The notes below the pieces were generated by a model that searched no databases, was not told the origin of the DNA, and worked only from the letters and a program-made list of their open reading frames with translations. This document shows positions 10,334 through 64,000 of a stretch of 64,000 bases of DNA, one piece after another. The position numbers and the translations under genes were made by a program. The stretch is from Apostichopus japonicus (lineage: Eukaryota; Echinodermata; Holothuroidea; Aspidochirotida; Stichopodidae), in NCBI RefSeq assembly GCF_037975245.1, contig NC_092561.1:13265001-13329000 (forward strand), read 5' to 3'. Numbering within the stretch: the stretch's first letter is position 1; every line of letters starts with the position of its first letter.

Positions 10334-13300
10334 GTAAATCAAACGTTAAGAAGTTAAGAATGAAAGCTAAGGAAGTTGAATGGTTCATACAAATTGCTGA
10401 TCTACAATTTCAATCATGCAACTTGATTAATCGTGCAATATTTGGAGCGAATACCGATAAATATATAATATATAGTTTAACATATTTAAATTGATTAAAG
10501 TTTAGATTCATTGATATCGGTATATCTACTAGCTCTAAAATAACAATAATAAACCAATTTTAAAACAATATACAACATCTACTCCTCCCAAAAAAATAGA
10601 CTTGCTTATTACAGACACAGTAATGGTTAATGTATGACCGTACTTGTACATTTTATATTATATTTTATTGTCAGTAAAAATCAAAATTACTGTGTTGGCG
10701 GACAATATCATGTCTCTCGATGAATGTTGGAAAAAAAGAAGTGAAGAAAATATGTGGATCGTAATTTGTGGTGAAGTTGGTGACGGTGGCTAGAGCCCCC
10801 ATGGGTTGTGTTGGTGTTGTTGTTGTTGTTGTAACCGCTCATCTTATATTAAGGCTAAATATTGCTAAATAATATATGGAATAAGATAATATAGAAGGTT
10901 CGGTTTCAATTTAAGGAACCATCCGAAATTGTAAATACGTTTCTTCATAGATACCGTAAACTTACTCCGACTTGCATTATTATATAAGGTAGAAGAAAGA
11001 TCAATTATGTCTAAATCAGAATTTATTCTGAATAAATAATTAGATTAATGAATTAATTAGATTAATTCAGCAAGAGGGCACTTGATGTCTCCATGTAATC
11101 TCTGGGTACAGGGTTGTGGTCGAGCGGCACAAAGGGCGGTGGCATAGAAGGAATGTAGCCTACCATATGGGATGTCTTGGGTTCGCTCCTTGACCGGCCA
11201 AAGTAAATGGCGTTTACCTCCAGCAAACATCTACGGTTTTGCCATCTGCAATGGATTGTAAATATTCAAAATAATCTAAAACTGTAAATCGAAAAGCCAC
11301 CCGACGTCAGGTTACAAGCCATTGCGACAGAGTATCGTAAAATAACTGCCTTGAGACTAAAAGAGGACAAGATTTACAACCGGGATTGATGGGACTGGGG
11401 CTAAGGCCCTCAATATTAGGTTCAAATTTGGAAGGGAGATGGAAGAAAAGGGAAAGACGTGTAAAGTAACTGACCATTAGAAACCCCTAAGATTCTTCAT
11501 TTGACTTACATTGTTTTTGTCTAACATTAATCCTTTTCTTCTATGTGATAATATTGTGGTGTACAAGTAAGTTGGCCTGACGTTTCGATCCTAGAAGGAT
11601 CTTCTTCAGAGGCTAAATGACTCGTAACAGTAACTTAAGGGACAATAACACGCACAGATTACAGACAGGTTAATGAGCATTGTAAACACAAAGAGATAGA
11701 TGTAAGGGGATCAGTAGACAAGGGATGGAAAGAAGAAAGAATGAAACCAGCAGGGGAAGGGAGAAGTAGGAGATAAACAGTAGAAGGACAAAGAGAGGAT
11801 TACGAGAAGGGGGTAGGGAATAAACTAGAGAAGGACAAAGACAGAAAGGTGAGGAGAAAAAAAAGATGGAAGAGAGCTATGAGAAGAGGAGTGACAGGGG
11901 GGGGGGGTGAGAAGAAAATATATTATTGTTGTTATTATTGTTAGTGTCTTTACCTTTTTAGGAAATTATCACTCCAAATGCACCCTACCAATGCCCTCTC
12001 ACCTCTCAACCAGTGATGTATCGCGACTGTAGCGAAATGCAGGCTGAATGTCATTCACAAGCCAGTGGGGTATACCAAATTCAACCAGAGGGATATGGTG
12101 CATTTAAGGTGTATTGCGATTTCGACACTGACGAAGGAGGATGGACGGTAACAACGTTTTTGTTCATTAATTTATTTATTCTACTCGCTTGTTTGGAATG
12201 TGATACATGTTTATATATTCCGCCTAACACAGTAGAACGCATAGGGCACGGTTGTTGTCAGTCTACAGGGGTTTGCGCAAATATCAACCATGATGGATGT
12301 CTTATGTTCTACTAAGGTAGATGTCTAGAGAACCTTTGATGAAGCGCGCAAGTGTCATTTACTTCCTATTACCCTGCCTGACAGCTCTCATATATAGCCT
12401 TCGCATAAAAAGTTTCTATTAGGTCTTACAGCCTTGGAACGTTAATTCAAATTTCTGAACGTACCCATTTTACTTCACTCAGCTCTATATACAAGGAATG
12501 AAATGGTCCTGACACTTGACGCATACGTCTGGTCAACGAACCTCGTGATACATGAAATTGTATCATATATACGTATCTTTAGATTTGATGATCACGTCTT
12601 TTACATTCCTACCCTACAGGTGTTTCAACGACGCTTGGACGGATCAGTCAATTTTGATAAACTGTGGACTGATTACAAAAATGGCTTCGGCTTTCTAAAC
12701 ACAGAATTCTGGCTTGGTAATGAAAAACTTGCCTACCTCACCGCTCAGAAGAACTACGAGTTACGAATAGATTTCCGAAACAAACACGGAGACCCCTACT
12801 ACGCATCATATGATCACTTTCGTGTTGGTGACTCGGGCAATTACTATCATCTTTTGCTGGGGGTATACTCCGGAAATAGTGGTAGGTGTAATCTCAACCG
12901 ATAGTCTCGGAGAGTTATTAATCGGTTTAAATGATAACTAAAGCAAGATTTTAGACTTTTTATGTCAGAGCCCTAGAAAGAAAGAGAGGAATAAAGAGTG
13001 CTAGTAATGTTTCTATAACTACTCCGGTTTTCGAGATATTCAGATTTAAAATATATTTCTGGAAGGCTCCTTTCAGGCTAAACTGAAGGTGATTCAGGCA
13101 TCTCATCAGCAGGTGAAATTATGAATGTTAATTAATCTTTTATCAATTTTAATATTTGGACCAAAACTTGTTCTTTTAAATTCATATTAACAACAGAGTA
13201 TCATTGCAAGATGTCCAACCCCCCCTTTTCATTGTGAAGGTTGCAATGCACTGTAAGAATGTTATCTGGAGCCATGAAAGTCTCGTGTTTTTCTATTGAC

Positions 13301-24076: not shown

Positions 24077-24425
24077 ATTGAATGCGATTTTCCCCCGAAA
24101 GAACCTTGCAGACTCACATGCAGGACTTGTTGAAATTTGAATCAAACAATGATTTTCAAATTTACCTAAAGAAATAAGAGGATCATATTGATGTTTGTAT
24201 ATAGCACCCTGTGAGGTTGCATATGTTTCGCAGCTCCTGTTTACATCGATTTTTGGCAGAATATATTCATCATACAATTTTGTAGAATGGACTGTTGATT
24301 TTCGAAATATCAGAGAGTCTGTACATACCATCATTTAGCAATTTGACGGACTAGAAAGTGCATATTTATGTGGTTTTCTTCAAGTTATACGTCTTCGATT
24401 CTGTCACAGTTGACTGGTTTCTAAC

Positions 24426-26888
24426 ATGCTTAAGTATACTAGTGCACAACTGCTTAGTATCCGTGGATCATTGACCAAGCCTTTGCTGCGGCTACCGCTC
24501 CAAGTCTACAACACTCTCAAAAGAAATGGAATAAGTGCTGTTAAGCCAACCAGCCGGGGCACAAAGGGGATTAAAAGGAGAAGAATACCTGTGAGACTGA
24601 AAAACACACTGGCCAGACAAGTGATTAAACAACGCTCAGCCAACTATGATAACCTGATCAGCCTGGTCAGGGGTCAAGGTCGTCCAGGGCCGGACGAAAA
24701 CAACAACAACAACACAGATCAGCTGATTGGTTCCTTCTCTACTAACTCTATGCCATTGAAACTCTGCCTGATTAACCCTTGCTCCGTGTGCAACAAAGCT
24801 ACAGAACTTTGTGATTTCACCATGGACAATGCTTTGGATGCATGTGTTATTACTGAAACATGGCTTAAAGGTGATGAGCGAGATGAGGTCATTCTGGCAG
24901 AGCTAAAGCCACCAGGTTATCATGTGAAGCATGTCCCCAGGAAAGGTAGAGGAGGGGGCATTGCTGTCATGCACAGAGACTCTATCTTATTGGTACCCAA
25001 TACATCTAATAGTTACCAATCATTTGAGTGCCTGGAATGTGTGATGCAGACTACTCCTCCTGTGCGCCTAGTGACCATCTACAGGCCACCACCATCAAAG
25101 ACAAATGGTAACAACTTTAGAACTTTTATGGAGGAAATAACTGCTTATTTTGAACTTCTCGTCATATCCACCGGTATTCTCCTTGTCCTTGGAGACTTTA
25201 ATCTACACATTGACAAGCCAGCAGATAAGGAGGGAGCGGAGTTCATTTCTTTAGTGGAGTCACTTGGAATGACTCAACATGTGACTGGGGCTACGCATCG
25301 TGGTGGGCACACGCTGGATTTGGTACTGACCAGGAACATGGATAACATTGTGCCACGTGTTGCTGTTGAGGATAAATGTCTCTCTGATCATTACCCTGTG
25401 TTCTGTGTGCTACCCCTACACTGCCTTATGCCTAAAACACAGGTAATCACCTACAGAAGGACAAAGGCCATCCAGCCTGACAGCTTCATCTGTGATATTA
25501 GTGCCTCATCTCTTGCTTCAATTTCAAGTGACACTGCAGCAGACAATGCCATCAGTCTGTATAACTCTGTCCTATCTTCCATCGTGGACAGTCATGCCCC
25601 AAAGAAGACCAGACGCGTCCCGGTGCGTTCACAGCCAGACTGGTATACGGCTCTGATAAGAGAGGCCAAGCAGCAGCGGAGGCAGTGTGAGCGGCTGTGG
25701 CGAAAGACCAGGCTTACTGTGCACAGAGATATGTTCATCGAAGCTAAGCGAAAAGTTAACATCATGATAGCAGAAGCAAAGTCAAGTCACTTCCACAACA
25801 TCATCTCTGAAAATAGCGGTGACTCCAAGAAGCTCTTTTCTGTTGTTAGCAATCTCCTTGGTAGGAAGGCAACACCAACATTACCCCCCGACAAGGATTC
25901 TAAGGACCTTGTGCATGAGTTTAGCACATTTTTCATTGACAAGATCACCAGAATTAGAGCCAGTATAGTCAGTGAAGGGAAGTCAAAATCCTTCTCATTG
26001 ACAGTGCAGAAACCGCCATCTTGTGCACTAGATATGTGGGAGCCAGCTACAGAGGATGAACTGAAGCGGATCATAATGGCCTCCCCGTCTAAGAGCTGTG
26101 GCCTTGATCCGCTGCCTACAAATCTCCTTAAACAGTGTGTGACACCTCTCTTGCCAGTTATCAGCACTATTGTGAACAACTCCCTCATAACTGGCGATGT
26201 ACCATCCGCTTTCAAGCTCGCCCATGTGACGCCACTCATCAAGAAACCCTCGCTGGATCCTACCGTTCTCTCAAATTATAGGCCAGTGTCAAACCTTCCA
26301 TTTGTTTCAAAGATTCTAGAAAAAGTTGTGTCATCCCGTCTCACATCCTATCTTGAACACAATGGTCTACAGGAGACTCATCAATCTGCCTACAGGAAAC
26401 ACCACAGCACCGAGACTGCCCTCGTGCGCATTCAGAATGATGTGATGGTAGCTCTTGGAGGTCAGAAAGCGTGCCTGATGGTTCTGTTAGATCTTTCGGC
26501 CGCTTTTGATACGGTCGACCACCGCCAGCTTCTTAGTACACTCAGTGACCTTGGTGTTAAAAGTAGCGCCTTAAAGTGGATGACATCATACCTCAGTGAT
26601 CGCCAACAGATTGTGTGTCTGGGAAAGGATTCTTCTGACCCTCAGACGTTAGAATGTGGCGTGCCCCAGGGTTCGGTCCTGGGGCCTGTGCTCTTTACGG
26701 TATACACGTCTTCACTGGGTCAGCTCCTTCGCTCGCAGGACATGGACTATCACTTCTATGCAGACGACTCGAGTCTCTATCTTATGTTCCATCCCAATGA
26801 CATTTCTATCACTGTGCACCGTCTAGAGAAGTGCATAGCCTCAGTTCGGCAATGGATGTCACACAAATGCCTGAAAATGAATGACTGA
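24426..26888 (+). CDS. LINE ORF: APE-type endonuclease and reverse transcriptase
   Basis: 820 residues. Residues about 115-340 form an APE-like endonuclease with ITETWL, YRPP, LGDFN, THRGGHTLDLV and SDHYPV. Residues about 545-818 form the reverse transcriptase with NYRPVSNLPFVSKILEKV, LLDLSAAFDTVDH, GVPQGSVLGPVLF and the catalytic FYADD box. The basic N-terminus (KGIKRRR) is typical of this group. The frame stops after LKMND, inside a segment that normally continues, because of a small indel; the remainder is in the next frame from 26881. Motifs for both enzymes are intact, so the copy is young. Confidence 0.93.
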   Translation: MLKYTSAQLLSIRGSLTKPLLRLPLQVYNTLKRNGISAVKPTSRGTKGIKRRRIPVRLKNTLARQVIKQRSANYDNLISLVRGQGRPGPDENNNNNTDQLIGSFSTNSMPLKLCLINPCSVCNKATELCDFTMDNALDACVITETWLKGDERDEVILAELKPPGYHVKHVPRKGRGGGIAVMHRDSILLVPNTSNSYQSFECLECVMQTTPPVRLVTIYRPPPSKTNGNNFRTFMEEITAYFELLVISTGILLVLGDFNLHIDKPADKEGAEFISLVESLGMTQHVTGATHRGGHTLDLVLTRNMDNIVPRVAVEDKCLSDHYPVFCVLPLHCLMPKTQVITYRRTKAIQPDSFICDISASSLASISSDTAADNAISLYNSVLSSIVDSHAPKKTRRVPVRSQPDWYTALIREAKQQRRQCERLWRKTRLTVHRDMFIEAKRKVNIMIAEAKSSHFHNIISENSGDSKKLFSVVSNLLGRKATPTLPPDKDSKDLVHEFSTFFIDKITRIRASIVSEGKSKSFSLTVQKPPSCALDMWEPATEDELKRIIMASPSKSCGLDPLPTNLLKQCVTPLLPVISTIVNNSLITGDVPSAFKLAHVTPLIKKPSLDPTVLSNYRPVSNLPFVSKILEKVVSSRLTSYLEHNGLQETHQSAYRKHHSTETALVRIQNDVMVALGGQKACLMVLLDLSAAFDTVDHRQLLSTLSDLGVKSSALKWMTSYLSDRQQIVCLGKDSSDPQTLECGVPQGSVLGPVLFTVYTSSLGQLLRSQDMDYHFYADDSSLYLMFHPNDISITVHRLEKCIASVRQWMSHKCLKMND

Positions 26889-27600
26889 GGTGCTTCTAAT
26901 ATCATCAAAGCATCTGGCCAGGAAGATAGAGTGTCCAAGCATCATTATTGGTGACCATCAGGTGGAGCCTAGTGATATGGCAAAGAGCATCGGTGTCATA
27001 ATGGACAAACATGCCTCTATGGAAGACCATATAACATCTGTGTGTCGGTCTGCTCAGTACCATCTCTACAACATCGGAAGAATACGAAAATACCTCACCA
27101 GAGAAGCCACAGAGCAGTTAATCCATGCTTTCATAACATCTAAACTGGATTACTGCAATGCACTTTTCTGTGGACTACCAGTTAAACAAATAAAACGACT
27201 GCAAAGGCTCCAAAACATAGCAGCAAGGATCGTTACACTAACAAGAACATCTAATCATATTACCCCAATATTGCATGAACTTCATTGGCTGCCAGTATCA
27301 CAGCGGATTAGGTTCAAAGTCCTTCTTCTTGTGTTCAAGTGCCAGAACAACATGGCACCTCCATACCTGCAAGATCTGATCCGTCTTTATCAGCCAACAA
27401 GAGCCCTACGTTCTGCTGGTCATAGTCGTCTGGAGGTTCCGATCACCAAAACAAACAGCTATGGGAACAGAGCTTTTTGCGTGGCTGGGCCACGCCTCTG
27501 GAATGAGCTGCCAGCTGAACTGAAAACTGTTCCTACTCTCACGACCTTTAAATCAAAGCTGAAAACTTTCCTTTTTAGACAGCATTACTGCAATTTTTAA
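26881..27600 (+). CDS. LINE ORF, C-terminal part after frameshift
   Basis: Continues the same protein one frame over, beginning TEVLLISS and going through LHELHWLPVSQRIRFKVLL, APPYLQDLI, GPRLWNELPAEL and TFKSKLKTFLFRQHY, the conserved post-RT region of L2/CR1-group LINEs. It ends in TAA at 27598. It is not an independent gene. Confidence 0.9.
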   Translation: MTEVLLISSKHLARKIECPSIIIGDHQVEPSDMAKSIGVIMDKHASMEDHITSVCRSAQYHLYNIGRIRKYLTREATEQLIHAFITSKLDYCNALFCGLPVKQIKRLQRLQNIAARIVTLTRTSNHITPILHELHWLPVSQRIRFKVLLLVFKCQNNMAPPYLQDLIRLYQPTRALRSAGHSRLEVPITKTNSYGNRAFCVAGPRLWNELPAELKTVPTLTTFKSKLKTFLFRQHYCNF

Positions 27601-30319: not shown

Positions 30320-43713
<13,394 letters not shown>

Positions 43714-45621: not shown

Positions 45622-45679
45622 ATGGCCGTACTCAGGATACTACTTGTTTCAGTGGTGATGCATGTATGTTATGTGAACG
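45622..45679 (+). CDS. Ig-NACHT exon 1: signal peptide
   Basis: MAVLRILLVSVVMHVCYVN, donor GTAGGT, phase 1. A typical secretory leader. Confidence 0.83.
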
Positions 45680-48600
45680 GTAGGTGCTAGTCGTGAATTT
45701 ATGAACACTTGTATTTTGGAAAGCGAGGGCGATTATTTACAAACAGAGCAATCAATAAACCAGAATTAGATAGAAGAGAATTTCATTGCAATTGTATCAG
45801 GAAAAAGTGAGATGGTAATCAACGTTGTGCCTTCATCATTATGGTTTATATGATATGTTGCTCGAAATAAGCTGCATATTGAATACCTAATCGCATTGTA
45901 GTAAGTGAGACTTAGATCAAATCAATGTACTAGATTGTTAATTTATATCAAACATAATGTTATGTACACCAATAATAATAATTCGATTCCTGTCATTTGT
46001 ATATTTGTGCCTGAAGTTTGCTTATCCGATTTAACCTGTTCATACATCCACTTTTGTTCTCATAAACAGGAATGAGAAAACATTGTGATGGGCTAACAAT
46101 TTTTGAGTCATGAAACAATCGTGTTCAAATTACGAAGAACATTGTGGAGATTTAAACCCTGAGAGTTTGCGGGAACAAATGATAAATAATAAATTGTAAT
46201 AAAATCTATGTGACAACTAGTCCGAAAAAAATGTTTTGACGGCTTGTTTTCACAAACTTTTAAAACTTTTATGTTTTCCATGTATGGCACCACAAAGTAT
46301 TGCCCAAATGAGAAATAAAATGAAAGTAATCTCTACAGGTCAACATTGTTTTCATAGCAAAGGAAGGTACGAGATGGTAGTTGGTTGTTACCCATCTCGG
46401 AATTTGTTTCCTTTAGTTGTTCTTTTTTGTTTGTTTATTTGCGGTCCGTACTAGAAAATATCTTATTAGTAATTAACGGGTTATGTTTTACCTACAAGAC
46501 CTCAAACTATGATAAAAAGCAATGAAAATGAAAAATGCATGAGACATAACCTGTTTCCCATTCTTTTACAAAGGTCGGGAGTGGATTGGGTGTTTCTCTC
46601 CTCAGTATGCTGAACAAAATAGTGAGGGATACATTAGATGTACATTTCCATCTGCGTTTCGTGCGGTCTATTGGTACGATGACGTCAGCAATGAAGACGC
46701 GAATCCATTTTTGAGCTACGCTAATTCTGTGAAGACTGGCGACGGCTATGAAAGAGGAGAATTTGATGTTCTTAAGAACGGGACTCTTGTTATTAATACT
46801 GTCAGATTAAAGCACGAGAAACTCTTCAAAGCTTTATGCATCGACAACGATGACATCGGACGAATATTCGTGGTTTCCTTGCTATTGATAGGTATGCGAT
46901 GACGCCCGAATTAATTATATACCGATACTTACTTCTCATTTAGTCTTTACATGGAGCATTTGTACATTAATTTAGATCTGGTGATGTCATAATTTAGATC
47001 ATTTAGAAAACCTTGTAATGTATTAGTGGGGTGGGTGTTTATGTCAACAATATCACTTAATGCCATTATCGTAGGAATTTGAAATCAAAACTGCGCTCAT
47101 TTTTATTTCCTGCAGTCCCACCTACCGAGCAACATCCACTCATAGGCGGTTGTACTTTTGCCGATCCATGTTTAGTACACTATAACACAAGCGGAGCACT
47201 ACGTTGTGACCTCAATGGCATGAGACCAGCTCCGAAACTCACTTGGGTCATCACAAGAGATAGAGGAGAAGATGTCCTAGATTCTACTAAAACCATAGAA
47301 GTAGACGTAAATAACATAACATATAGTGTAACTACCAAAACAAACGCTTTACAAAGAGAACAGTCTGTGTTAGCATCCGTAGTATGCAAAGCAAACTATG
47401 GCATAACTGGATGGAAATCAGACACAAGAGCCCTTGTGGATTTATCACCAACTAAAGATTTCTATTTAAATGAGCCTACCTTAATTTATGGTGAACTCAA
47501 TGGTCCGATTACTCTGCCATCTCCATTTGAAAGGGCAGAAATGGATATGTTGCTTTGGAAGAAAGGAAATCACAAAAGTTCCGACGTGATTGCCTATGCA
47601 GCTTTTGGAAGCGAGAAGTTAATCAGAGATGGGGTAAACGTATTTTTGTTAGACAAGGACGGTAGCCTAACTGTGCAAAGAGTGGCCTTAAAGCATGAAG
47701 GACTATATACCTTTGTTGGCAGTAATGGTTTCCAAAATAAAGTGTCTTTAATTGAAGTAATAGTTATGAGTAAGTATTTTTTTCCTTTGTTTCAGCTTAT
47801 TGTACAACAAAATTTAAAAGATAATGAAGTTCAATGAAATTGTATCACTAATAATTTATGAGCATAGGTAGTTGATTGGGTAGTAGTGCGTGGCTATTTC
47901 CAATAGCCTTTCACTATTACGGTAAACGAGTGAATGGCCATGTTGCCTACAGCTCTATATATAGATTGTTCACTACAAGTGTCACGAAAAACTGACTCCC
48001 GCCTTGGTAAAGAGAAAACATTGGAATTGTTACCTGTGTTTTAACTTTTGTTGCTATTTAAACACACCGTAGTCTTTCATGTCATGTGTTGGGTCAATAC
48101 ATGCATCTCCGAAGCTAAGCGTGTAGAAAGTACTAAAAAGGTAAATTTGTAAACATTGCGTTATCATAATATTTGTGTATTGTATTCTGCAGTTCCACCA
48201 TCACCGCCGTACTTAATAGTTAAACAATGTACAACGATTCACCAATGCATTATTGAGAAAGATCGAGGAACTCTTACTTGTGCAACGTCAGGGGTACGTC
48301 CTCTCATATCCGTTAAGTGGTCTACAGATGAAAATAGTGGGGTGCGCTTTTCCCCAGCAAAATCTACCTCTCAAGACAAAATGGGACTCTTTGATGTTCT
48401 TACAGAAGTGGAGTATGTTATAGAGGATTATATCGAATGTGGAGCCCGACTTCAAGTGACATGTCACGCATTTGGTCAGGCTGCTGCGATATTTCAATCA
48501 ACGGTAACCATTACCATTGTTAAAGGTAAGCAATATTACAATGTGGATTTAGCGACAGATATACAAGTAGATGTGCTAAAAGTTTTGTTATCATACCTAC

Positions 48601-51600
48601 ATAAAAACGAATTCAACCTGTGTTTTACCTTTTCCCCTTCCCCCTGTAAAATGTCCAGAACCAACGATTGTAATATAAGTGATATAAAAACTAGCCCTAT
48701 TGAGTCCGTTGAAGACTCACGGAAGGTCTATTGGAAGCAGCTAGTGGTACAGCAAATGAAGTATACAATGTAAAGAAGTCGTTTTGAAAATTAATTCCCA
48801 AACACAAGCAAAGGCTATGTGTACATATTACAACATTTAATATTATACAAATAATGAATGGTTATGAGTGCAATAGTGCATATATTTCATGAGATATAAT
48901 GTTCCATTCAACGAGGCAATTCAACGAGGCAATACAACGTATTATTTTACGATGGGTAAAATGCAACAGATTGTTTTGAACCGACAGGTTTCTCTGCTCT
49001 CTTACCATTGAAAAAAGTGCTTACAAAAAAGTATAACCCATGGTTCTATATCATATAGTGGAATAGAGCGGATTTTGCATGTGATCAACGAGCAATTGAC
49101 CAATCAAATGACCATAATACAATTAGGTGTTGTATAAAGGCGGTTAAACTATCCATATATGTGTCTGTAGTAGCACGAGGTGACTCCAATCAAAGAAAAC
49201 AATGTGTAGTAAACTAAATACGAATGTGTGCATAGATCATATGCAACAATGTATGACTCCTTTTTGTTTAAAAAAACGTTCTGTGCCAGCCGATACTCAT
49301 AGATGGTAGAGAAATTACTGTTCATGTGCCACAACCGTACATTAGTAATTACTACTTTGTGTTCGTAACACGGTGACATGTTTTACAGGTGGCACTGTAA
49401 CAACTGCAAAACTGTTAACTTGTTCCCATGTAAAACAAAGAACTGCGCGACTGGACAAGGAGTCTATGAAGATGAGAATGCATACGAGATGAAGTAAAGG
49501 AGCTACGGTACCGCTTGATTCAAACTCACACCTCTCTTTGAATTACTCCAATTCGTCATGCCAAGAACGAAGAAAGGCCAAGATCGGGTGTATCCATAGG
49601 ACTACACTTATAGTATAAAAATACTAGATACGACTTTTTTTTAGAATCGCGTATTAATGAACTCACACTCAATGATTGGTACACCAACTACTGTTCAAAT
49701 CTCACAACCGTGCCGCTCAGTTATTACTACTTTGTGTTCGTTAAACGGTACGTGTTACACGTGATACCAGTAGTTTCTGTACCAGCTATGAGTATCGAGT
49801 GTCTGTGCAGATCACAGCCACTAGGCACCAGTTGTCTACTCGATTGGGGGGTACACATTTGGAACTTATTTTCTTGATGTTTCCTAATCTCAACAGGTTC
49901 TGATAACTGTACAAATTTCGCATCTGATGTGGTACCACACTCAAAATCTTGGATAATTCCGGTAGTTATCTTGGCTGTGTTTTGTTGTATTCTGACGGGC
50001 TTCATAGTTTGGGGCTGCTTCCGCCGACTGGGTAAATTTTAAGTGTTCTTAACCTTTTAGTATAACATGGAAAAGATTAAACACATTTATTTATAGAATG
50101 GGATTCAAACAAGTGCCCTCTAAAATTTAACCATACATTATCCCAATGTATTTTACTATATGATGTTTTAGTATACCATAATATCATTGAGTATAACCAG
50201 TCTTTACGAAAGATTTCATACTTTCTTAAAGGTAAACAACAAAAGAGGAAGAGGGGATCTCTTACCACTGAAACGGGACATCCTCTATTAGAGGTACGAA
50301 ATAAGCTTCAGTTTGCTCTTAGGTTGACATACCGAGATAACTGTTTTCTCTGTAGTTATCTTTCTTGTTCATTTCATGGATGTAACTATTTATGTTTTCA
50401 TTGATTTTTCAGGGCAAAGGAATAAGTGGAATAACAGGGACGAACACGACCTCATCGAGCAACACAGGTGAGAAACCACCGTAACACGTAATCCGTCTCA
50501 AGATAATGATATAATTTAGAGCTATTTCAATTGGAGTCTCAACGAGATGGATCTTGAATGTTCAAATTATTTTACATAGATGAGATATGGAAAAATGCGA
50601 AATATGTTAACCCATTGTGCTTCATTTTGGCCATGCTCTTACGTCGCAATGGCCTTCATATCACCTATTCCTGAACATCATCCTTCTTGTGTAGATACTA
50701 TATACTTTGATAAACTCAGGCTATATTCATTGTTATAGCATTATGCAGAATAGAATCATCCATTCCAGTCACTTTGAAATATATTAATGTTAACGTTTCC
50801 CTGTAATTAAAATTTACTTTCCACATTTTCGTGAATGTTAAGTGGGATATAAAGATCAATTCTGATTCTCTTTTTTTACAGGAAAAAAGGATAAATTCAT
50901 TTCCTTGCTGAAAAGTTCTTACGAGAGTAGGTTCGATTACGACGGGATATACATTCTACCGACTTTATCCTACATACAAGCACGAAAACACCCAGGTGAT
51001 GTCATAGAACCAACTCCCAAACCATTAAAAAGCTATTATGAATTTTTCAACACTGACTCATTTTTAGGTCACAAGAAACGAATTGTAATCAAAGGAGGAA
51101 CGGGTTACGGGAAGACTTTGCTAGCTTTAAAAATGGCCAAAGACTGGTGTCGGAATGAAAAAAGTTCGCCTCTTAATGATGTAGACATTTTCATCTTGAT
51201 ATCACTGAAAGGTGTTGATTATAAAGCGACTATTTTCCATTCCATTTGGAAACAGCTTCTCTATGAAGAGTGTGGCCTTAAATTTGAGGATGTGCAAGAA
51301 ATCTTGCAAAATGAAGAAAATTGTGTCTTTATTCTTGATCATTATCATGAGTACCAAGAGAGGAAAAAGAATTTGAAAATTAAAGAAAGTTTTGTTGACA
51401 AAATCTTGGAATCGGAAATATTACCGAAAGCAAAGGTAATTACTTTAACTGCCGTACAACACAAAGCTCACGAAAATATATATTCCAAAAACCCTCCAGT
51501 TGTGACCATTGAAAGGTTTACGGAAGAACAAACAGGAGAGTATTTGGAGTATATCTTTCAAGACGATGATAGTAAAAGAAGGCACTTTGAAGAAAAAATT

Positions 51601-54600
51601 AAGCAAAATAGCTATATAAATGACCTCTGTCACATACCGTTATTCCTACGCATGATAGCCACCACCTTTATCAGCAATAACACACTACGATTCGAGAAAC
51701 TTACTGTATTTTTCGAAGATTGGTTTCGGATTAAATTCAAATATCTTAAAGAAACTAAAACTTTGAATCTACGCTTCTTTAAGGAGTTTACAAAGTTAGC
51801 TTATGATGGGATAGTATCAAATCAAAGCGTATGGTCAAGGAAAGATTTTGTACAGAAAGTAAGGGTAGAATCTTTCAATCATTTTGAAAGAATGGGGATA
51901 ATTGTTGAAACTAAATTTCAAATTGATAATTCCACGACTGAAGATGATCATTCTCACAAAAACGATGACAACAACAATGTCAAATTCATCCACGCGATTT
52001 ATCAACAATTTGTCGCAGCTTATTATCTTGCATACAGTGCCGATGAGACTGAACTGAAAGAAGTTTTGAAAGGTATTAACTTGTCAAAGGATTCCCAGAT
52101 GTTAGTTTTTATCTGTGGATTAAAGAAAGACCATCTCAATATAGTTATTGATCATCTCATATCTCTCAAAGAAGACAATTCCACTCTGCCAATTGAAGAT
52201 TACCTGTTTTCGTGTTGCTACGAAGCGGATTTAACGTCCAGTGTAAAGGAAATAAAGAACATTTTCACGAAGCTTCATGGAATTGTGTTTAAGCAAAATG
52301 ATTCAGTCGTCGTTACCAAAGGAAAGATTGATGTTATTGAGAAAGCAACTGAAGAGAAGGTAATGGTATTATTTCATGCTGTATCAATAAATAGAGGCAA
52401 ATGAACAAACACAATAGACAAAAGAATCGATATTTGCTTATTACAGCTTTACACAAAGTATTATAGAAAGAATTAATAATATACTCTGCAGATATTCGTC
52501 TCAAAATGAAATTGTGATAGCGACACTTTCTGTTTACAACAATATATGTTATAACAAATAGTTTACTTCCCTTTCTCGTCATGTCATCGATTATGCAAAT
52601 TGAAAGCGTCGTTTGTGTTTCGACATCATTTGTACTTTTTTCTTCACACAGATAAACATCCCTTACATAGCTATGAGGAATGCTCTCAAGGAAATTCAAG
52701 ACGAAAAAGTAACCCTGGTTTGTGGTTCATCGTTTCCGCTGCCAAAGTATGTGACTAAGTATTTTATCGACGACAGAGCTGGTAAATGGAATTCATGTGA
52801 TACTGGTTTACTAACGCTTTTGGAAAAGACCAATAGTGTCAAGACAGCAATGTAAGTAGGCCTACTTTTTTTTTCTGGAAGTGTTGGTATTTCCCATGGT
52901 TAGTAACGTACATGCATGTAACGAAACATGAGAACAAATCTCTATCAAGTTTTTTTATTTTTTATTATTCTATGTCTTAAATTATTTCATTGTTAATGTT
53001 ATTATGCTCTTTCAGTGTCATCAGCCGGAGTCGTCCTGAAGCGATGACAGATGATTGTATTCAAAAATTGCAATTGCAAACGCAGATGTCCGGTGAGACG
53101 TCTTTTGTTATTTAATTAACTGGAAGGTTTTTTAAGTGTATAACAGTGTGTAAACAACTACTATTCAAATATCAACATACACTGAAATTAAGACATAATA
53201 TACATACACTTAACATAATTCATTATTAGGATATCAATAACAAATTACTGATTTAAATGCATCATGGACCAGGACTTGAGAAATTATCTTACGTTGAAAG
53301 GAATAATGTCCCTTGATTACGGCAAAACTGTTAGTATAAAGTATCTTACATGCGGAAAATCAATTATGTAACTTTGATAAGTGACTGTAATTTCCTACAA
53401 GATTGGTCGAGTCACCCAAGAAGCAAGTGGTGTTGCAATATTGAAAATGTTTATTAAGTATGTTTTCGACCCTTGTTTTAGACAAATGGTTGTATATGTT
53501 ACAGCGTTATTTATATTTGCAGTTTTACTAGCCGGATTACTTAAAATGTCACAATAACATGTGATTATTTTATGTTAAATGAATGGTTATTTTATATTAG
53601 GTTTTGTGATAATTGATTATGAATTTACTCTTATTGGCTTTCAGTTATGTGGCAAAGTGTTGAATCTTCAAATGGCAGTGACGAAATGATGACCAGTTGC
53701 CCTTCTGTGAATACATGCCAGTGGATGGTAACTTAGTTTACTTTTACGTTATTGCAATGGTCAGTGGGCCATGTATTCGAGAACGCTTATGATTTACGTC
53801 ACATCAGTGTTTTTGGCTATGAATATAATACAATTAATTCATTATTTCTTGTTCTTGCTTTTATATGCTGTTATGGACCTTTCTTTTACTTTTCTCTCCT
53901 AGGCATTTGATCAAGTTTGTCAGTCGGTGAGTTTTACAGTAAGGGTAGGATAGATATCAATTTAAAAAAGCAAAGAGATATTACCTTAAACGTGATATAC
54001 ATTCTTTGCTTTCAGGAATTATGCCGCATTACGTATTTTTAATTCTATTGGCGTTCTCAACTATCGGTCAAGTATTCCTGTTAAATAAGCGTCATCGAAA
54101 AAATGTACGATTTGCTTAAAATAGATAAAGTACGTGAACCATTATTATCAGACACAAATAGCATGCTACCACTTTTACAGTTTAATAACTAATATTTAAT
54201 GAATATTTTGATAATATATTGAAAACAGTCATGCCTAAAGGTAAATATGCATTGCTCTATCTTGCTAAATGAATTTCGTTTGAATATATTGTGAGGTATG
54301 TGTAAATGATATAACTTGATTTCTCTGTAAATTGTTGAATGTGCATTGTACAAAGCCCTTATCATTCGCCTGTATATTCTTTGCATTAGACGAAAAATTG
54401 TATATGGTACGTGCACTTATTCTAGCATGTATTGTGTACGATTAATCGGGAAACATTAACATGACAAACATGCATAATAATTGGTATTATCGTCATTTTG
54501 TCTTCATAAAAAGTGTCAGTTTGTTCAGAATGAAATTGGGCAACAGTAATGCAAACTTTCAATTGTCGCTTTGATACACGTCCAGTATGTTAAAATGAAT

Positions 54601-57600
54601 GGTATGGATTTTCCTGTACAGAAAGTAGCAGCTAACTATGTCATGCGAGAATTTCAAGAAATCTTGGAAGAAGTCGAAAATGTACGTACATTATTTTTCT
54701 CTAAAAATTTGGTTGATAATTAGTGTTTCCAATTGTTTGATTTCATGCAACACAAGTTGTAGCGTTTTTATGAATCAATTGTTTTCATCCTTTCGGGAAT
54801 ATTTACCATATGAAAATTTCATTACATGAATGAAATTGTTGTTGCACTCTCATGCAATGATGACCTATTTAGCATGCTTAAAATCATTTACAATTTTATC
54901 GTGCGACCACTGCATATATTATTTGTTTGCTTACAGTTTTATGTTGACGGAAGCTATGAGACGAGTGGCTCTTTGGCTAAAATTAATAAGGTATTTTATT
55001 AAGTTACAACGGAGTTGCAAGCAAGGAGGGTGTTTAAATTACCTGGCTGATGTGGATGAGGTCTTTTGATTGAATACTTTTATGCAGCTGCTTTGAGAAC
55101 AGTTATCTTACCACACATACTCAAATATAGGTTAGTAACAGGTGGAGGGTGTTGAGGGACGGAATAGATGGGCAACCGGTTCACACAGAGATTACAGTAA
55201 CTACTGTAAATCATAAAGTTTTGTACCACAGTAGAAACTGAATTGTGCTGACAAATCTGATAATTCGGTAGCATGTGCTATTATGTTAACAGTAAGAACT
55301 GAGGATATGTGTAATTCCAACAAATGCATCAAACTGGATGTGTTGGGATTACACGTATCCTTAGTTCTAACTGTTAACCTAATAGCACATGCTACCGATT
55401 TATAGAACGATCCAGCTTTTACATTTGGTACAAAACTTTAAAAGTTACAGTAGTAACTGTGTTCTCTGTGTGTATCGGGTGAGACGGGACAAGTAACCTA
55501 GACCTGTAATTGCATCTACGTGTTGTAGTGTATATATATAGTGTTTACTCTCTAAAATTAATGTCTGACCACACACACATTTTACTCCGTGTACTGCACA
55601 TGTACGTAACAGTAACCGTGATAAGCTAGTTATCAGTTGATATTAGAAATGTTACACATTTACATTGCATTTGGCGTTCAATACGTATTATTCGATTATA
55701 GATAAAGAAAAATATAGTAACAACGCTCACGCAAGAGGGACCGTCAGATACTCAGGAGGTAAGTGTCCGTAAATAACAACTTCTTAGGAGAAACGGAAAC
55801 GAGATAAGAATGTACATGTAACGTATCTCGATAACATGTAATAGACAAAAAAATAGTTATTATTCACCAGTAGTACTCACTTCGTAGAATGATTATTATT
55901 TCGTTCAATAAAATCATCCAATTATAAAATCTGGCTATCTGCAGTATTATTTATCTGATGCTTAAATTTTGCTCACGGCTACATCTCTTTCTTTTTTTTG
56001 GGGGGGGTGGGGTAAATTATGTCAGTTCGAGACACTTCCCTTCTAAATATATGCTAAACACTTCAGAAAATACCTCAATGCAATATTAACATTTCTTCTC
56101 ATGCGCTGAGTTTAGTCGATAAGCGAATGTGTATCAAATTATTTTCATTCCCTTTGCATCTTCATTCTAGAAATGTGGAGCAGCTGCCAATGAAACAACC
56201 TTCGAAGAAATGGGTGGTAAGCTAGTTTTCAAACAGTTAATCAACAACACGTAATTTCCATCAAATATTTATTATGTCGCCAGTTAGATCTTTTTACCTT
56301 ATCTATCGATAAGTACTGGAATGTAATCACCATAATTGATAAAACTAGAACAATTAATTATTCTTAATACATGGAATTAATTATTTTGTTTTTAATTTCA
56401 CATCCGTTTATATGATATATATTATAATAAAGTTTCTCACAATGTCTGGAATTCTTTAGCTCAAGTCAGGAAATAATTAGTCTGTGCTTTAATCTCATTC
56501 GTCCAATAACTACTTTAGTTATCACATTTTATTGTGTTACGTGACATTTGCATTGTAATTGTAGTGTGACGGAGTGATTTTTTTAACCAAGGTGTAAGTT
56601 GTTGTTAAGAACAAATGAATGATATTTTGTAAGATTTTTTTTCCAAAAATATACCAAACTGAAGGAAACCTCCTTTGAACTAACTTAAGAAAATAACGAC
56701 AATTATTCGCATACTGACCCTACATCTCATTTGTTATATCCTCATGATAGTTGATGTCGTACACGCGAAATTCTTTTGGTATCAGTGGTTCTACTCGTTG
56801 CAAAGAGCGATGGAATACTCCCAAGACAACGCTGAAACTATACCAACAGATAATCAAAACATCAATGTTTAAAGACAATGAATCGTGACGGGTAGTTTCA
56901 TCTAGCAGAATGAACAAGTTAATACATTTTTCATAGAGAAGTCAATAGGTTAATTTATTCTACGCTACTTGAACGTTGACAGTACATAGTAATAAGTCCG
57001 TTCAAACATATAGAAAAATATGAAAATTAAACCAAAAGGATAGGAGCTTTCGATTGGGACAAACATTCTTTATAGCATTGTCTATATATATAAATATGTG
57101 CTGGTTCTTATACACCTCGCCAATGTAATTTAGCACATGGTTTTAAACGATCTGTCTTAGCAGTAAGTTTTAGTCAATATTTATTCTTCTTCTTTGAAAA
57201 GCAAATCGAAATCGATAGAATTTATTGTTTCACATTGTAAAAAAAAAAAAATACATCTTTCAATGTCTACTGTGAAATTCATTTGCTGTAGAAGTGTCAT
57301 CCTGTAGTATCTTCAGTGACAACACGTAGATAAACCCGTATTTACATTATCAAATTTTAAAGAATTTAAAGAAAGGTCATAACTCTTATTTCAGGATCGG
57401 TTAGTGGTCTAAGTACAACTGTTGTTGATATAGTATACGTACATGTCTTGTGCCATTAACAGGCTACTAATTTACATTTATGAAACACATTTAAATTCAT
57501 GCCAGCAATATAAAAGAAAGAATATTGTTTCAACTTGAACAAATCGTTCGCATGAAACATTTATGGAACCTCTTTAACTGTAATATATGTGCAACGAACG

Positions 57601-58550
57601 TAGGCGTAATCTGTCCATATGGACTCATAAAGGGTGTGTGAAATTAAATGCAGTTCAACTAAGGCTGTGTGGGGATTGGTACCGGTGTCAAGCAAACCCA
57701 ATTGAACTTTAGTCAATAACTTACACGTGTGTATGAATAGCAATATTATACGCTGTTTTATTGTTCTCTTAAGTACTTGCTTGGTTTTACAAAGCCGTAT
57801 TTCAGTAAAGTTAAATATTCATTTATCTAGTTAGTAATCAAAATTGGCACATTAAACAAGACGATGTCCAAAGGTTGTTTACTCTAAAGATCGGCTTGAA
57901 AACGGGAATGTTGTTTTGTGTAAAGAAAAATATATTTGCTATTTTTATCACATTTTCGCAGTTTGCTAAACCAATGTATTTAAATGCTTGCGTCATGATC
58001 AAGGAGAATGGTAAACCAGTTTTGTCTTCGTGGTTTCATTACCGCTTCATAGGTAAGTCTTCTGTTGGTCAAGTAAAGAAAGGAAGACAAACCGAATATC
58101 CTCATTGGTAGCATTTTTCATATCAAACAAACACAGACCTAGTGCAGTAGTGCCATATCATCCTGGATTCATATTCACCCATTACTGTGTAATCAACAAG
58201 TTTCATAACCACGGACTGTAAAGTCGAAATATTTGTCTAACGAACTAAATACGTTAGCAAAAAAAAATCATCGAATGTTTTCACCCCACCCCTCTACCAA
58301 ATGAAACTACGGATGGATGTTTCCCCTCCCCTTAACTTTAGAAACCATTTACTGTCTCTTGCTGCACTTTTGCGGTTCTGGGAATGTTTCCTTTCACCGC
58401 TGTTACCAAAGACTAATTTATGAACTGAAAGAATTCAGGAGAATGTGCCACATATTAAAATATTTCGTTAACTTGAACATTCGGAAACTAATACTTTGTT
58501 CTATGAGTCCCCAACAAAATGATTACGAATCCTCAAACAAAAGAAGATAA
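45622..58550 (+). CDS. Ig-ectodomain transmembrane receptor with cytoplasmic NACHT NTPase, 19 exons
   Basis: Exons: 45622-45679, 46574-46891, 47116-47769, 48193-48525, 49897-50031, 50232-50293, 50413-50467, 50882-52359, 52652-52851, 53016-53092, 53645-53727, 53903-53926, 54622-54681, 54937-54990, 55702-55758, 56171-56216, 57395-57432, 57962-58052, 58342-58550. Total 4032 nt, 1344 codons with stop, every phase matching and all introns GT-AG. Order: signal peptide; four Ig domains (residues about 20-454); transmembrane helix (about 473-494); basic linker; NACHT (about 539-1030); then about 310 residues of unknown type. The NACHT has Walker A GGTGYGKT and Walker B FILDHYHEY plus HAIYQQFVAAYYL near its end. 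No LRR, CARD, death or PYD domain seen. NACHT proteins are STAND NTPases that oligomerise on sensing; placing one behind an Ig ectodomain suggests ligand-driven assembly at the membrane (inference). Earlier termination is possible at 54042 or 57459. Confidence 0.85.
46574..46891 (+). CDS. Ig-NACHT exon 2: Ig domain 1 (V-like)
   Basis: GYIRCTFPSAFRAVYWYDD supplies the first Cys and core Trp; LVINTVRLKHEKLFKALCID supplies the second Cys. Acceptor CTTTTACAAAG, donor GTATGC, phase 1-1. Confidence 0.87.
47116..47769 (+). CDS. Ig-NACHT exon 3: Ig domains 2 and 3 in one exon
   Basis: Domain 2: VPPTEQHP, GALRCDLNGMRPAPKLTWV and VLASVVCKANYG. Domain 3 resembles domain 1 (LLWKKGNHKSSDVIAYAAFG, LTVQRVALKHEGLYTFVG) but both canonical Ig cysteines are replaced. 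The exon fuses what is two exons elsewhere in the gene. Phase 1-1. Confidence 0.88.
48193..48525 (+). CDS. Ig-NACHT exon 4: Ig domain 4
   Basis: IPPSPPYLIVKQCTTIHQCI, GTLTCATSGVRPLISVKW and ARLQVTCHAFG; close in plan to domain 2, including an extra CxxxxxC pair near its start. Phase 1-1, donor GTAAGC. Reading past the donor to 48773 is chance ORF. Confidence 0.88.
49389..49497 (+). CDS. candidate alternative terminal exon
   Basis: An acceptor (TGTTTTACAG) is followed by a Cys-rich frame WHCNNCKTVNLFPCKTKNC, then ATGQGVYEDENAYEMK and a stop. That frame needs phase 2 in, whereas exon 4 leaves phase 1; the phase-1 frame gives a different 35-residue end. The preceding intron sequence is partly duplicated upstream of the membrane exon (near 49700-49760). 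Either use would give a receptor without a membrane helix. Weak. Confidence 0.22.
49897..50031 (+). CDS. Ig-NACHT exon 5: transmembrane helix
   Basis: SKSWIIPVVILAVFCCILTG then FIVWGCFRRL: a 22-residue hydrophobic helix ended by basic residues, placing the C-terminal side in the cytoplasm. Acceptor TAATCTCAACAG, donor GTAAAT, phase 1-1. Confidence 0.92.
50232..50467 (+). CDS. Ig-NACHT exons 6-7: basic cytoplasmic linker
   Basis: Exon 50232-50293 reads GKQQKRKRGSLTTETGHPLL then E; exon 50413-50467 reads GKGISGITGTNTTSSSNT. Phases 1-0 and 0-1. Low-complexity Ser/Thr linker between the membrane and NACHT. Confidence 0.75.
50882..52359 (+). CDS. Ig-NACHT exon 8: NACHT NTPase domain
   Basis: Single 1478-nt exon, acceptor TTCTCTTTTTTTACAG, donor GTAATG, phase 1-0. 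KRIVIKGGTGYGKTLLALKM is the P-loop; CVFILDHYHEY is Walker B; KVITLTAVQHK occupies the sensor-1 site where most NACHTs have TSRP, so the Arg is missing. FTEEQTGEYLEYIF, LCHIPLFLRMIATTF and FIHAIYQQFVAAYYLAY match the winged-helix region and the end of NACHT modules. Reading past the donor reaches a stop at 52404, which would give a protein ending just after NACHT. Confidence 0.95.
52652..53092 (+). CDS. Ig-NACHT exons 9-10: region after NACHT
   Basis: Exon 52652-52851 (INIPYIAMRNALKEIQDEKV, KYVTKYFIDDRAGKW) and exon 53016-53092 (IVISRSRPEAMTDDCIQKLQ). Phases 0-2 and 2-1, good splice sites. No leucine-rich repeats; family not recognised. Confidence 0.78.
53645..56216 (+). CDS. Ig-NACHT exons 11-16: string of short exons
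   Basis: Six short exons at 53645-53727, 53903-53926 (24 nt, AFDQVCQS), 54622-54681 (KVAANYVMREFQEILEEVEN), 54937-54990 (FYVDGSYETSGSLAKINK), 55702-55758 and 56171-56216 (KCGAAANETTFEEMG). All but the first and last are phase 0-0, so they can be skipped singly without breaking frame. A spurious-looking exon at 54016-54042 (ELCRITYF, stop) could act as an alternative end. Confidence 0.62.
55182..55472. repeat. foldback element, 130-140 bp arms
   Basis: Arms 55182-55322 and 55341-55472 are inverted copies at roughly 80 percent identity around an 18-nt loop; matching blocks include CGGTAGCATGTGCTATTA and AAAGTTTTGTACC. Lies in the Ig-NACHT intron 54991-55701 and would fold as a long hairpin in the pre-mRNA. 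Probably a non-autonomous foldback transposon. Confidence 0.88.
56217..57394. other. intron of the Ig-NACHT gene
   Basis: No feature recognised apart from short A runs. Confidence 0.4.
57395..58550 (+). CDS. Ig-NACHT exons 17-19: unrecognised C-terminal domain
   Basis: Exons 57395-57432 (GSVSGLSTTVVDI), 57962-58052 (FAKPMYLNACVMIKENGKPV, LSSWFHYRFI) and 58342-58550 (ETIYCLLLHFCGSGN to a stop after DYESSNKRR). Acceptors and phases fit exactly. The last exon looks alpha-helical, Cys-rich and basic (LIYELKEFRRMCHILKYF), compatible with a small helical signalling domain, but I cannot place it in a family. Exon 17 read past its donor stops at 57459, an alternative end. Confidence 0.65.
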
Positions 58551-62106: not shown

Positions 62107-63457
62107 CTGAGTAGGAAATAGAAGAAAAACGAGAATTTTAACGAAATAATTAAGTTATTAATGAAAGATATACATTCACTTACTAAATATACGGTATGAA
62201 TAATGCCTTGAATCTGAGTGGTGTAGGCCATAAGTGTATATAAATCAATACACGCAATAAGTTTTCTCATTGGGTTAAACTCAGAGAAAATGGGTAAGGG
62301 GAGGGGGATTGAATATTAATGAAAATAGCTCATTGAGATATGGCTTTAGCCTGATTTGTAGACGGATAAATGATATATAAATGACTGTATGAATCACATT
62401 GGGAAGAAGTGCAATTACATAACGAAAATACGCTGGAAACACTACTACTTTCATTATGTCTTTTATCATTATATAATATATTCTGTGAGCTTCTTTATTT
62501 CCCTTATGGCAACCCTGAAGAAATACCCAGTTTGAATTCATCCATGTGAGTATGTCTACTCGACTGTTCCCTCGCTGCAATATAACTAAGTTAACATTTG
62601 TATTTGGTACCATATAATAGCAATAAACTTTTCTAATACAATGAGATTGTAGAACGCAGACCGACAGGCACGAATGAAGGCGGTTTCTTCTTGGAAAATG
62701 TATTGGTCGCCTTTGTGATTGGCTCTTCGTAGCTATTTGTGAATATTAATACTTTGTGGGTGCGTTGTGAGTCGTCCAATCAACACTTCGTATACAGTAT
62801 ATTCCATTCCAAAGTAGTTCATATTCCAAAGTAGCTTCCCACAAACGTTTGTCAATTGCGCAAAGTTTCGCTGCGTTCGGAAAAATCATTCGAATTTTGA
62901 CGGATCTGATCATGATTTTATATTTAACGTTAAGAGCCGTGAATCATTTAAGGCTTGATTTCGCTCCAATTCGTGACTGAAACCAAAACACTGATTAACT
63001 AATCCGACAATTACTCTTTCTGTGTACAGAGTACTTGCGTATCTGGAGTGTCATACAAATGACTTTAACTGGAAACAGTCTTTTCTGACACGATTTCATC
63101 GCATTAGAGATGTGCGTATGTGAGCGTGCGTCTGAGTGTGGTTATAACAAACATTATAACCGCAAACCGAAATTTTTCCTATTAATAAGATAGCAATACT
63201 CAGTTTGGTCTCCCCTTTATCCATCCTTCATTCTCCAACTCCCAACACCCGACCCCACCACTACCACTACCATCCACTCCGCTTCCATCTTTCATGAAGG
63301 TGTCGAAAGCACTATAATTATAGTAATATCTTACCTGTACATTGTTCTCCGTCCCATGAGTAATCTGTTGTGCATGAGCAATCATAGGACCCAATAGTGT
63401 TGGCGCAAACTGTATTCGGTATGTCACAGATAGTGTTACTCTCGCACTCATCAATGT
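61934..63457 (-). CDS. 3' end of a secreted/extracellular protein: calcium-binding EGF plus hevein-like module (partial)
   Basis: Two exons: 63457-63335 and 62106-61934. The first, phase 1-1, is a whole calcium-binding EGF module: [40 protein letters not shown], with the D-I-D-E-C calcium signature. Its phase matches the second exon (acceptor TTTCCTACTCAG), reading [57 protein letters not shown] and a stop at 61934. The CCSxxxWCGxxxxHCxCxxCxDYR pattern is that of invertebrate hevein/type-1 chitin-binding-like modules. The 5' part of the gene lies beyond the right edge. Likely extracellular glycan or matrix binding (inference). Confidence 0.78.
62107..63334. other. intron of the EGF/hevein gene
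   Basis: Between the two recognised exons; no other exon detected. Confidence 0.45.
63335..63457 (-). CDS. calcium-binding EGF exon
   Basis: 123 nt, acceptor TTTGTATTAG, donor GTAAGA, phase 1-1, the standard one-exon cbEGF. Six cysteines are present in EGF spacing. Confidence 0.92.
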
Positions 63458-63485
63458 CTAATACAAAGGGATAAATATTACTATA

Positions 63486-63648
63486 TAGATGGATGGATGG
63501 ATGTATGGATGGATGCATGCATGGGTGGATGGATGCGTGGGTGGGTGGGAGGATGGACGGATGGATGGATAGATTGATGGATTGATGGATGGGATGGGAT
63601 GTGATGGGATGGGATGGGTTGGACGGACGGACGGATGGATGGATTGCC
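63486..63648. repeat. (GGAT)n microsatellite
   Basis: Imperfect GGAT/GGGT tetranucleotide array just upstream (minus-strand sense) of the cbEGF exon; gives spurious PSIHPSIH reading frames. Confidence 0.95.
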
Positions 63649-64000
63649 AAGGGTAATGGTGCACTCTGAGGTATATACTGTTACGTCTACACGCAAAGTT
63701 GTGATAATGACTAATGGTTTGACGTTCTGTTGCAAAACAAGATCGCATACCAGATTTCTCCACTGGCTGGGGTGATGAAGTTTGGAGTTTGGTTAGCAAT
63801 ATTTACAACAGGATACACATCTCATAAACATAATTGTAACATATTGCTATGAAAACTCTTAAAACAAATATTATTAATTTCGTAGGCAATTTAACCAAAC
63901 CTTTCCTTTATAATGAGACAACCCCCAACATTGTTAAACAAAGCAAGATTATTGAGCAAGCAAGTTATCAGAGAGGCAATTCGAGGTTTAACATTACATC
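63649..64000. other. right edge, probably intron of the EGF/hevein gene
   Basis: No exon recognised before the window ends. Confidence 0.4.

Follow-up and report, generated by a model that had tools for sequence, protein, structure and literature searches.

The window analyzed here is the whole 64,000-nucleotide stretch C1:13265001-13329000 of the sea cucumber Apostichopus japonicus, and the genome searched with it comprises 671.6 Mb in 35 contigs. Its plus strand carries a gene whose ten exons, read from their splice sites and translation, span 45622-53092 with GT/AG splice sites throughout and a single open frame (Table 1). As predicted from the genome sequence, this gene joins a signal peptide, immunoglobulin (Ig) domains in the order V-C-V-C, one transmembrane (TM) helix, and an NLR-type NACHT–winged-helix module. 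The order of Ig ectodomain, one TM helix, and cytosolic NACHT had been proposed in the first-pass annotation, and it is borne out by the open spliced frame, hydropathy, a Pfam NACHT match, and other loci in the genome. The accompanying 19-exon reconstruction stands for these ten exons, and the fit of exon phases invoked in its favor stands insofar as the frame chains (phase 1-1 is common to exons 2 to 5). As proof, however, phase sums are weak where exons were chosen to fit; the real evidence for the gene structure comes from paralogues. Exon 9 matches a stretch 3' of the NACHT exon of locus L034 (41% identity over 34 aa, E = 9e-6), and a paralogue search with exon 10 gave no convincing match. 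Leucine-rich repeats (LRRs) were sought with Pfam in exon 9 alone, and nothing matched.

Head to head with the Ig–NACHT gene, with its start 1.9 kb away, lies a minus-strand gene in which a signal peptide and one TM exon can be recognized by eye, together with Ig domains, one of which passes Pfam (C2-set_2, 31.5 bits against a cut-off of 21), and a receptor-tyrosine-kinase-like domain (PK_Tyr, 1.2e-20; best PDB match, FGFR1). Because its HRD motif reads HPG and its DFG motif reads DFC, the product is probably a pseudokinase. The two genes could have a promoter region in common. The window also holds a fibrinogen-related protein, long open frames that resemble a retrotransposon by eye, and a calcium-binding EGF domain exon. 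PMC5638244 lists both the receptor-tyrosine-kinase-like and the fibrinogen-related families among those that have expanded in A. japonicus.

Table 1. Exons of the Ig–NACHT gene and neighboring features (positions counted from the first base of the window), with related loci elsewhere in the genome (contig coordinates)
Feature	Position	Strand	Content and evidence
Exon 1	45622..45679	+	Signal peptide MAVLRILLVSVVMHVCYVN, phase 1 end; open from ATG, donor gtaggt; hydropathy 1.89
Exon 2	46574..46891	+	Ig V-like domain 1; L045 paralogue exon at equivalent place, family profile
Exon 3	47116..47769	+	Ig C2-like and Ig V-like domains, both in one exon
Exon 4	48193..48525	+	Ig C-like domain 4; paralogue exons
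Exon 5	49897..50031	+	Single transmembrane helix, phase 1-1, then RRLGKQQKRKRG
Exon 6	50232..50293	+	Basic juxtamembrane linker; splice sites, frame
Exon 7	50413..50467	+	Ser/Thr-rich linker; splice sites, frame
Exon 8	50882..52359	+	NACHT–winged-helix module, 492 residues; Pfam NACHT, PDB profile match, motif columns
Exon 9	52652..52851	+	Post-NACHT segment; L034 paralogue match
Exon 10	53016..53092	+	Post-NACHT segment, frame continuous with exon 9; splice sites, frame
Probable pseudokinase gene	33013-43713	-	Ig domains, TM exon, kinase-like domain
Fibrinogen-related protein, two exons	11962-12904	+	Fibrinogen_C, 35.9 and 103.9 bits (Pfam)
Long open frames	24414-27600, 30760-31584	+	Resemble non-LTR retrotransposon endonuclease and reverse transcriptase (by eye)
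EGF exon	63318-63677	-	Calcium-binding EGF domain, 37.5 bits (Pfam)
Ig-type locus	C16:12841476	-	C-V, C, and TM exons
Ig-type locus	C16:4501260	+	V1, C-V, C, and TM exons
Ig-type locus	C12:23081862	+	C-V, C, and TM exons
Recent duplicate (L060+L065)	C16:36692600-36699400		Ig–NACHT
Recent duplicate (L066)	C16:36883900-36889400		Ig–NACHT

The ectodomain is predicted to comprise four Ig-like domains across exons 2 to 4. The earlier claim of four Ig domains is weaker than stated: the Ig identity of the exons rests on paralogues and family profiles, and the gene's own exons all score below the Pfam cut-offs. Exon 2, which matched no Ig family in Pfam at E ≤ 1, is 42% identical over 83 aa to its L045 counterpart (E = 2e-19). 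Exon 3 gave the best Pfam score of the gene's Ig exons (V-set, 22.4 bits; cut-off, 26) and a sub-cut-off C2-set_2 score of 16.2 bits, and its V-like domain lacks both canonical cysteines. Exons 25 to 28% identical to exon 3 and 28 to 38% identical to exon 4 are found in L044, L045, and L048. Some paralogue Ig exons do pass Pfam (Ig_3 at 32.9 bits in L044, cut-off 30; V-set at 34.8 in L045, cut-off 26; C2-set_2 at 24 in L048, cut-off 21), and several further ones gave sub-cut-off scores or no Ig match. Against the PDB, the exon-2 family profile found CEACAM1 (E = 0.0016) and otk (E = 0.011) as the sole two matches under E = 0.02, and 34 of the 35 matches at E up to 1 carry names of Ig or T-cell-receptor type. 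The exon-3 profile matched 124 sequences at E ≤ 0.01, and all 60 listed have Ig-superfamily names; the exon-4 profile gave, at E up to 0.1, one weak match to teleost IgM (E = 0.035). The gene thus has the signal-type N terminus and tandem Ig domains of AjNLRC4-type receptors, with its own exons below the Pfam cut-offs. Single-sequence AlphaFold2 models were set aside (mean pLDDT, 30.6 for exon 3 and 40.1 for the NACHT).

Exon 8 is recognized as NACHT by Pfam (40.4 bits against a cut-off of 26.7; E = 3.6e-10). At E ≤ 0.01, a NACHT profile built from four family members matched 44 sequences in the PDB; 42 are named NLR or BIRC1 (NAIP) and two "uncharacterized protein," and the best matches were NLRP3 (4e-24) and NLRC4 (2e-20). 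Both of these align to the profile over a stretch that starts at Walker A and takes in the winged helix. A protein database search with the same exon left 0 of 7,985 scored candidates at E ≤ 0.001, a result that we attribute to a collection poor in animal proteins.

The Walker A motif GGTGYGKT reported in the first pass is retained in the motif alignment, but the module is not the "full" NACHT that was claimed, as its altered Walker B reads FILDHYHEY without the second acid and the sensor-1 arginine is gone. We aligned 38 NACHT exons, those of the window and 37 other loci out of at least 184 NACHT places. Walker A is conserved across this alignment, and the window gene also retains the winged-helix histidine. 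At the second Walker B acid, the window has His versus Asp or Glu in 35/35 other readable rows, and the sensor-1 arginine that it lacks is present in 36/36; among the 38 exons, the window alone is without both. The gene therefore combines the Walker A and winged helix of NLRs and other STAND NTPases with the loss of their two-acid Walker B and sensor-1 arginine. Given the known functions of Walker A, the Walker B acids, and the sensor-1 arginine in STAND NTPases, its NACHT would bind nucleotide through Walker A, with hydrolysis poor or nil. Because the second Walker B acid and the sensor-1 arginine are lost, this NACHT probably binds but does not cycle nucleotide, a reading that applies to the window gene only. 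Instead of cycling as a switch, the protein would then serve as a scaffold, as a modulator, or in a locked-on form.

The gene belongs to a large family. Used as a query, its NACHT exon found 87 places, itself included, among the matches listed, the others being 25 to 31% identical. Genome-wide, there are at least 184 NACHT places and, with exon 4 as the query and itself included, at least 105 Ig places; these are counts of exon matches to a divergent query rather than of gene models, and more may exist. Of the 184 NACHT places listed, 51 are preceded on their own strand by a homologous Ig exon no more than 10 kb away. No pairs were found downstream on the same strand or upstream on the opposite strand, and 200 shuffles gave a mean of 1.2 and a maximum of 5. 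By exon coordinates, C12:23.08 Mb is a possible 52nd pair (9,961 bases). The remaining 54 of the 105 listed Ig places have no paired NACHT, and exon-4-like clusters without one occur, among the matches listed, at C12:7.3-8.2 Mb, C11:26.3-26.7 Mb, and C15:21.8-22.1 Mb; these are possibly Ig receptors with other tails.

In-frame stops interrupt 15 of the 51 paired Ig matches, all on contig C7, leaving 36 stop-free pairs. At two C7 loci, L061 and L058, the stops fall at identical places upstream of open NACHT frames. Since these shared stops sit amid otherwise conserved sequence, we take the C7 Ig exon to be a relic copied along with the NACHT. In the C7 NACHT cluster, the Ig part may have been lost before the cluster multiplied or have been re-routed by splicing.

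On the NACHT tree, a single branch (100/99.4) separates 11 Ig-labeled rows from 17 with another N-terminal exon, with one change between the two; 5 of the 11 Ig rows are labeled by pairing alone, and 10 further rows are unlabeled. In the sister clade, the N-terminal exon had looked "DED-like" by eye only, and Pfam found no death-fold family in either of the two scanned. The window gene groups with L010 and L034 (100/98), with a long-branch warning. Two recent Ig–NACHT duplicates on C16 are 96% identical over 5.5 kb. Between them, dN and dS are 0.010 and 0.007 for the C-V exon, 0.044 and 0.054 for the C exon, and 0.027 and 0.095 for the NACHT. Amino-acid replacements keep pace approximately with silent changes in the Ig exons and lag behind them in the NACHT. 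These values are suggestive of an ectodomain freer to change than the NACHT, in one pair with 21 Ig-exon changes in total.

In such a family, the window gene could be a decaying pseudogene whose frame is still open while its function fades. It has lost the Walker B acid, the sensor-1 arginine, and both cysteines of its second V-like domain (V2), it sits on a long terminal branch (1.83), and it is 24 to 27% identical to the three relatives aligned; the stops on C7 show that family members do decay. Nevertheless, its three Ig exons and its NACHT exon, 492 residues long, read open from end to end, Walker A and the winged-helix histidine are retained, and its splice sites are intact, and we regard decay as improbable. 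We prefer to see here a germline repertoire of no fewer than 36 loci, each with an Ig exon free of stops linked to its NACHT, and in the window gene a divergent member of it, and we think it likely that this holds together with the receptor role proposed below.

Whether the Ig and NACHT parts belong to one gene can be judged from the exon order of the paralogues. Eight NACHT loci were examined with their upstream DNA, and three proved to be of the Ig type (Table 1), two (L040 and L043) carry an N-terminal exon of another kind, and in three (L042, L046, and L047) neither exon type was seen. Five extra loci were picked from the list of Ig–NACHT pairs, and local BLAST identified Ig exons in L060, L061, L063, and L064. 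The Ig exon of L062 is a match of the exon-4 search alone (E = 1.4e-4) with an open frame; when the window's Ig exons were compared with this locus by local BLAST, nothing matched at E = 0.1 or at E = 1. A TM exon is present in four of the five, L064 having no credible one. Counting the window, the TM exon occurs in eight of the nine Ig-type loci read far enough; in one of these eight, L061, the Ig exon is broken. As background, a TM-exon pattern of this kind yields 20 candidates across 250,220 bases. A scan of the 1.5 kb 5' of the NACHT match found the TM exon in 0/10 Ig-type loci, 1/17 loci with the other N-terminal exon, and 0/10 unlabeled loci. We set this negative result aside because, for L002, L004, L010, L032, and L034, the flank scanned stops short of the TM exon or barely reaches it, an explanation that covers 5 of the 10 Ig-type loci scanned.

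The first-pass annotation had itself named the finding that would undo it: two adjacent genes wrongly joined, the first an Ig receptor that stops after the TM exon and the second an independent NLR. The linker exons of the window gene are indeed short, and exon 6 matches only itself across the paralogue loci compared. Yet exon phases are continuous through these linkers, the TM exon sits between Ig and NACHT in nearly all of the Ig-type loci read far enough, the 51 Ig–NACHT pairs share strand with the Ig upstream against none in either control, and an equivalent order is published within one protein, AjNLRC4 (PMC8699970). The two-gene alternative is very unlikely because the exon order recurs in other loci. 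Reading frame, splice sites, and the order in those loci all place the NACHT after the TM helix in a single predicted protein, with one TM helix between Ig and NACHT, as in AjNLRC4-type receptors.

AjNLRC4 also bears on novelty and topology. The first pass knew of no well-described receptor class with the Ig–TM–NACHT order, but this A. japonicus protein had been published in 2021 as a membrane receptor for Vibrio phagocytosis (PMC8699970; MN607598, per PMC11932488) and has been followed up in PMC11932488 and PMC13133943. The order of Ig, Ig, TM, and NACHT is the same in both, and the published feature boundaries of AjNLRC4 lie 2 to 18 residues from those of the window protein: Ig-like 31-132 against V1 at 21-126, Ig 251-353 against V2 at 249-335, TM 483-503 against approximately 473-496, NACHT 600-757 against 605-766, and a second hydrophobic stretch at 776-795 against 784-802. 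The two differ at a short motif, LRTD at 177-180 in AjNLRC4 (PMC11932488) and ITRD at 171-174 in the window.

That second stretch is called a TM helix by SMART, and the AjNLRC4 paper counts two (PMC8699970). In the window protein, besides the signal-type peak, hydropathy gives a strong single helix with a peak of 2.98; all remaining peaks are lower, with maxima of 1.66 where Ig domains end and 1.24 in the cytosolic region. The segment at 784-802 carries LCxIPLF, which is invariant in four family members and aligns to MCFIPL within the NACHT of solved NLRP3, and for these reasons we interpret it as a helix of the NLR core and regard the protein as crossing the membrane once. The signal-type exon and the basic cytosolic flank that follows the helix (RRLGKQQKRKRG) argue for an Ig-out, NACHT-in orientation across the Ig–NACHT family.

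AjNLR-new (PIK48001.1, 1,197 aa; PMC13133943) likewise joins Ig, TM, and NACHT in one protein and has been published with the inverted topology. That arrangement, with NACHT outside and Ig inside, draws on surface binding by the recombinant NACHT and on a TMHMM prediction that places the Ig between two TM segments (PMC13133943), and it is most unlikely for the window protein, whose first hydrophobic stretch comes from a signal-type exon of its own ahead of the Ig domains, whose TM helix is followed by RRLGKQQKRKRG, and whose counterpart of AjNLRC4's second SMART helix aligns inside the NACHT of NLRP3. Our guess is that TMHMM may have taken the signal peptide of AjNLR-new for a TM segment. A signal peptide and one TM helix, with the NACHT inside, would be a simple reading of the conflicting published topologies.

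Among other relatives, NLRP3 and NLRC4 share the NACHT and winged helix of the window gene, whereas canonical NLRs are cytosolic, with an LRR sensor and a CARD or PYD effector (PMC8699970), in place of its Ig ectodomain and TM helix; for AjNLRC4, too, neither CARD nor LRR is reported in the available portion of PMC8699970. NACHT is fused to an Ig V-set domain in NLRs of another sea cucumber, Chiridota heheva, in which "other domains" occur in only 6 of 53 NLRs and the available text gives neither TM nor topology, and the same source did not identify Ig–NACHT genes among sea urchin NLRs (PMC8913654). Neither the main text of the H. glaberrima genome paper (PMC13228809), which does not contain the word "NACHT," nor the available portion of a ctenophore paper (PMC11797021) mentions an Ig–NACHT joining. 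For A. japonicus, PMC5638244 also reports the expansion of an "NLR family CARD domain-containing" family, located mainly on LG04, which may well be the Ig–NACHT family under another label. PMC13133943 speaks of Ig–NACHT genes in the plural, and the portions of the sea cucumber NLR literature available to us gave no count of an Ig–TM–NACHT repertoire. The class is thus already known, and the exon plan and the lower-bound count appear to be additions.

Taken together, the sequence evidence leads us to propose, with good but incomplete confidence, that the product of the window gene is an immune receptor of the AjNLRC4-type Ig–TM–NACHT class, a germline-encoded protein of the cell surface with a single membrane pass. 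In AjNLRC4, the Ig part binds microbes and polysaccharides, and dimerization, internalization, NACHT–actin interaction, and Arp2/3-driven phagocytosis have been described (PMC8699970), as has MLKL cleavage downstream of a CASP-1 complex (PMC11932488). By analogy with the AjNLRC4 experiments, the Ig ectodomain of the window protein would bind microbes or glycans, ligand would dimerize and internalize the receptor, and the cytosolic NACHT would recruit actin and lead to phagocytosis. We propose that the window gene shares this general role, and the chances that it shares the phagocytosis step seem to us about evenly balanced.

A broader scenario, which we offer tentatively and would not bet on, is that the A. 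japonicus germline carries at least 36, and perhaps more than 50, single-pass V-C-V-C Ig receptors on an NLR-type STAND switch, whose ectodomains diversify or, as on the C7 branch, vanish while most NACHT modules are conserved, and in which members like the window gene have turned into nonhydrolyzing modulators, in this case next to a head-to-head Ig–TM receptor whose tyrosine kinase is dead. If true, this would be an invertebrate counterpart of the variable Ig receptors of vertebrate leukocytes, with NACHT replacing ITAM or ITIM tails. Independently of that scenario, the loci described here extend a receptor so far represented by a handful of cloned genes from sea cucumbers to a genomic repertoire that can be counted and whose exon plan is conserved, which makes the existence of a large, variable, surface-exposed NLR system in an invertebrate testable.
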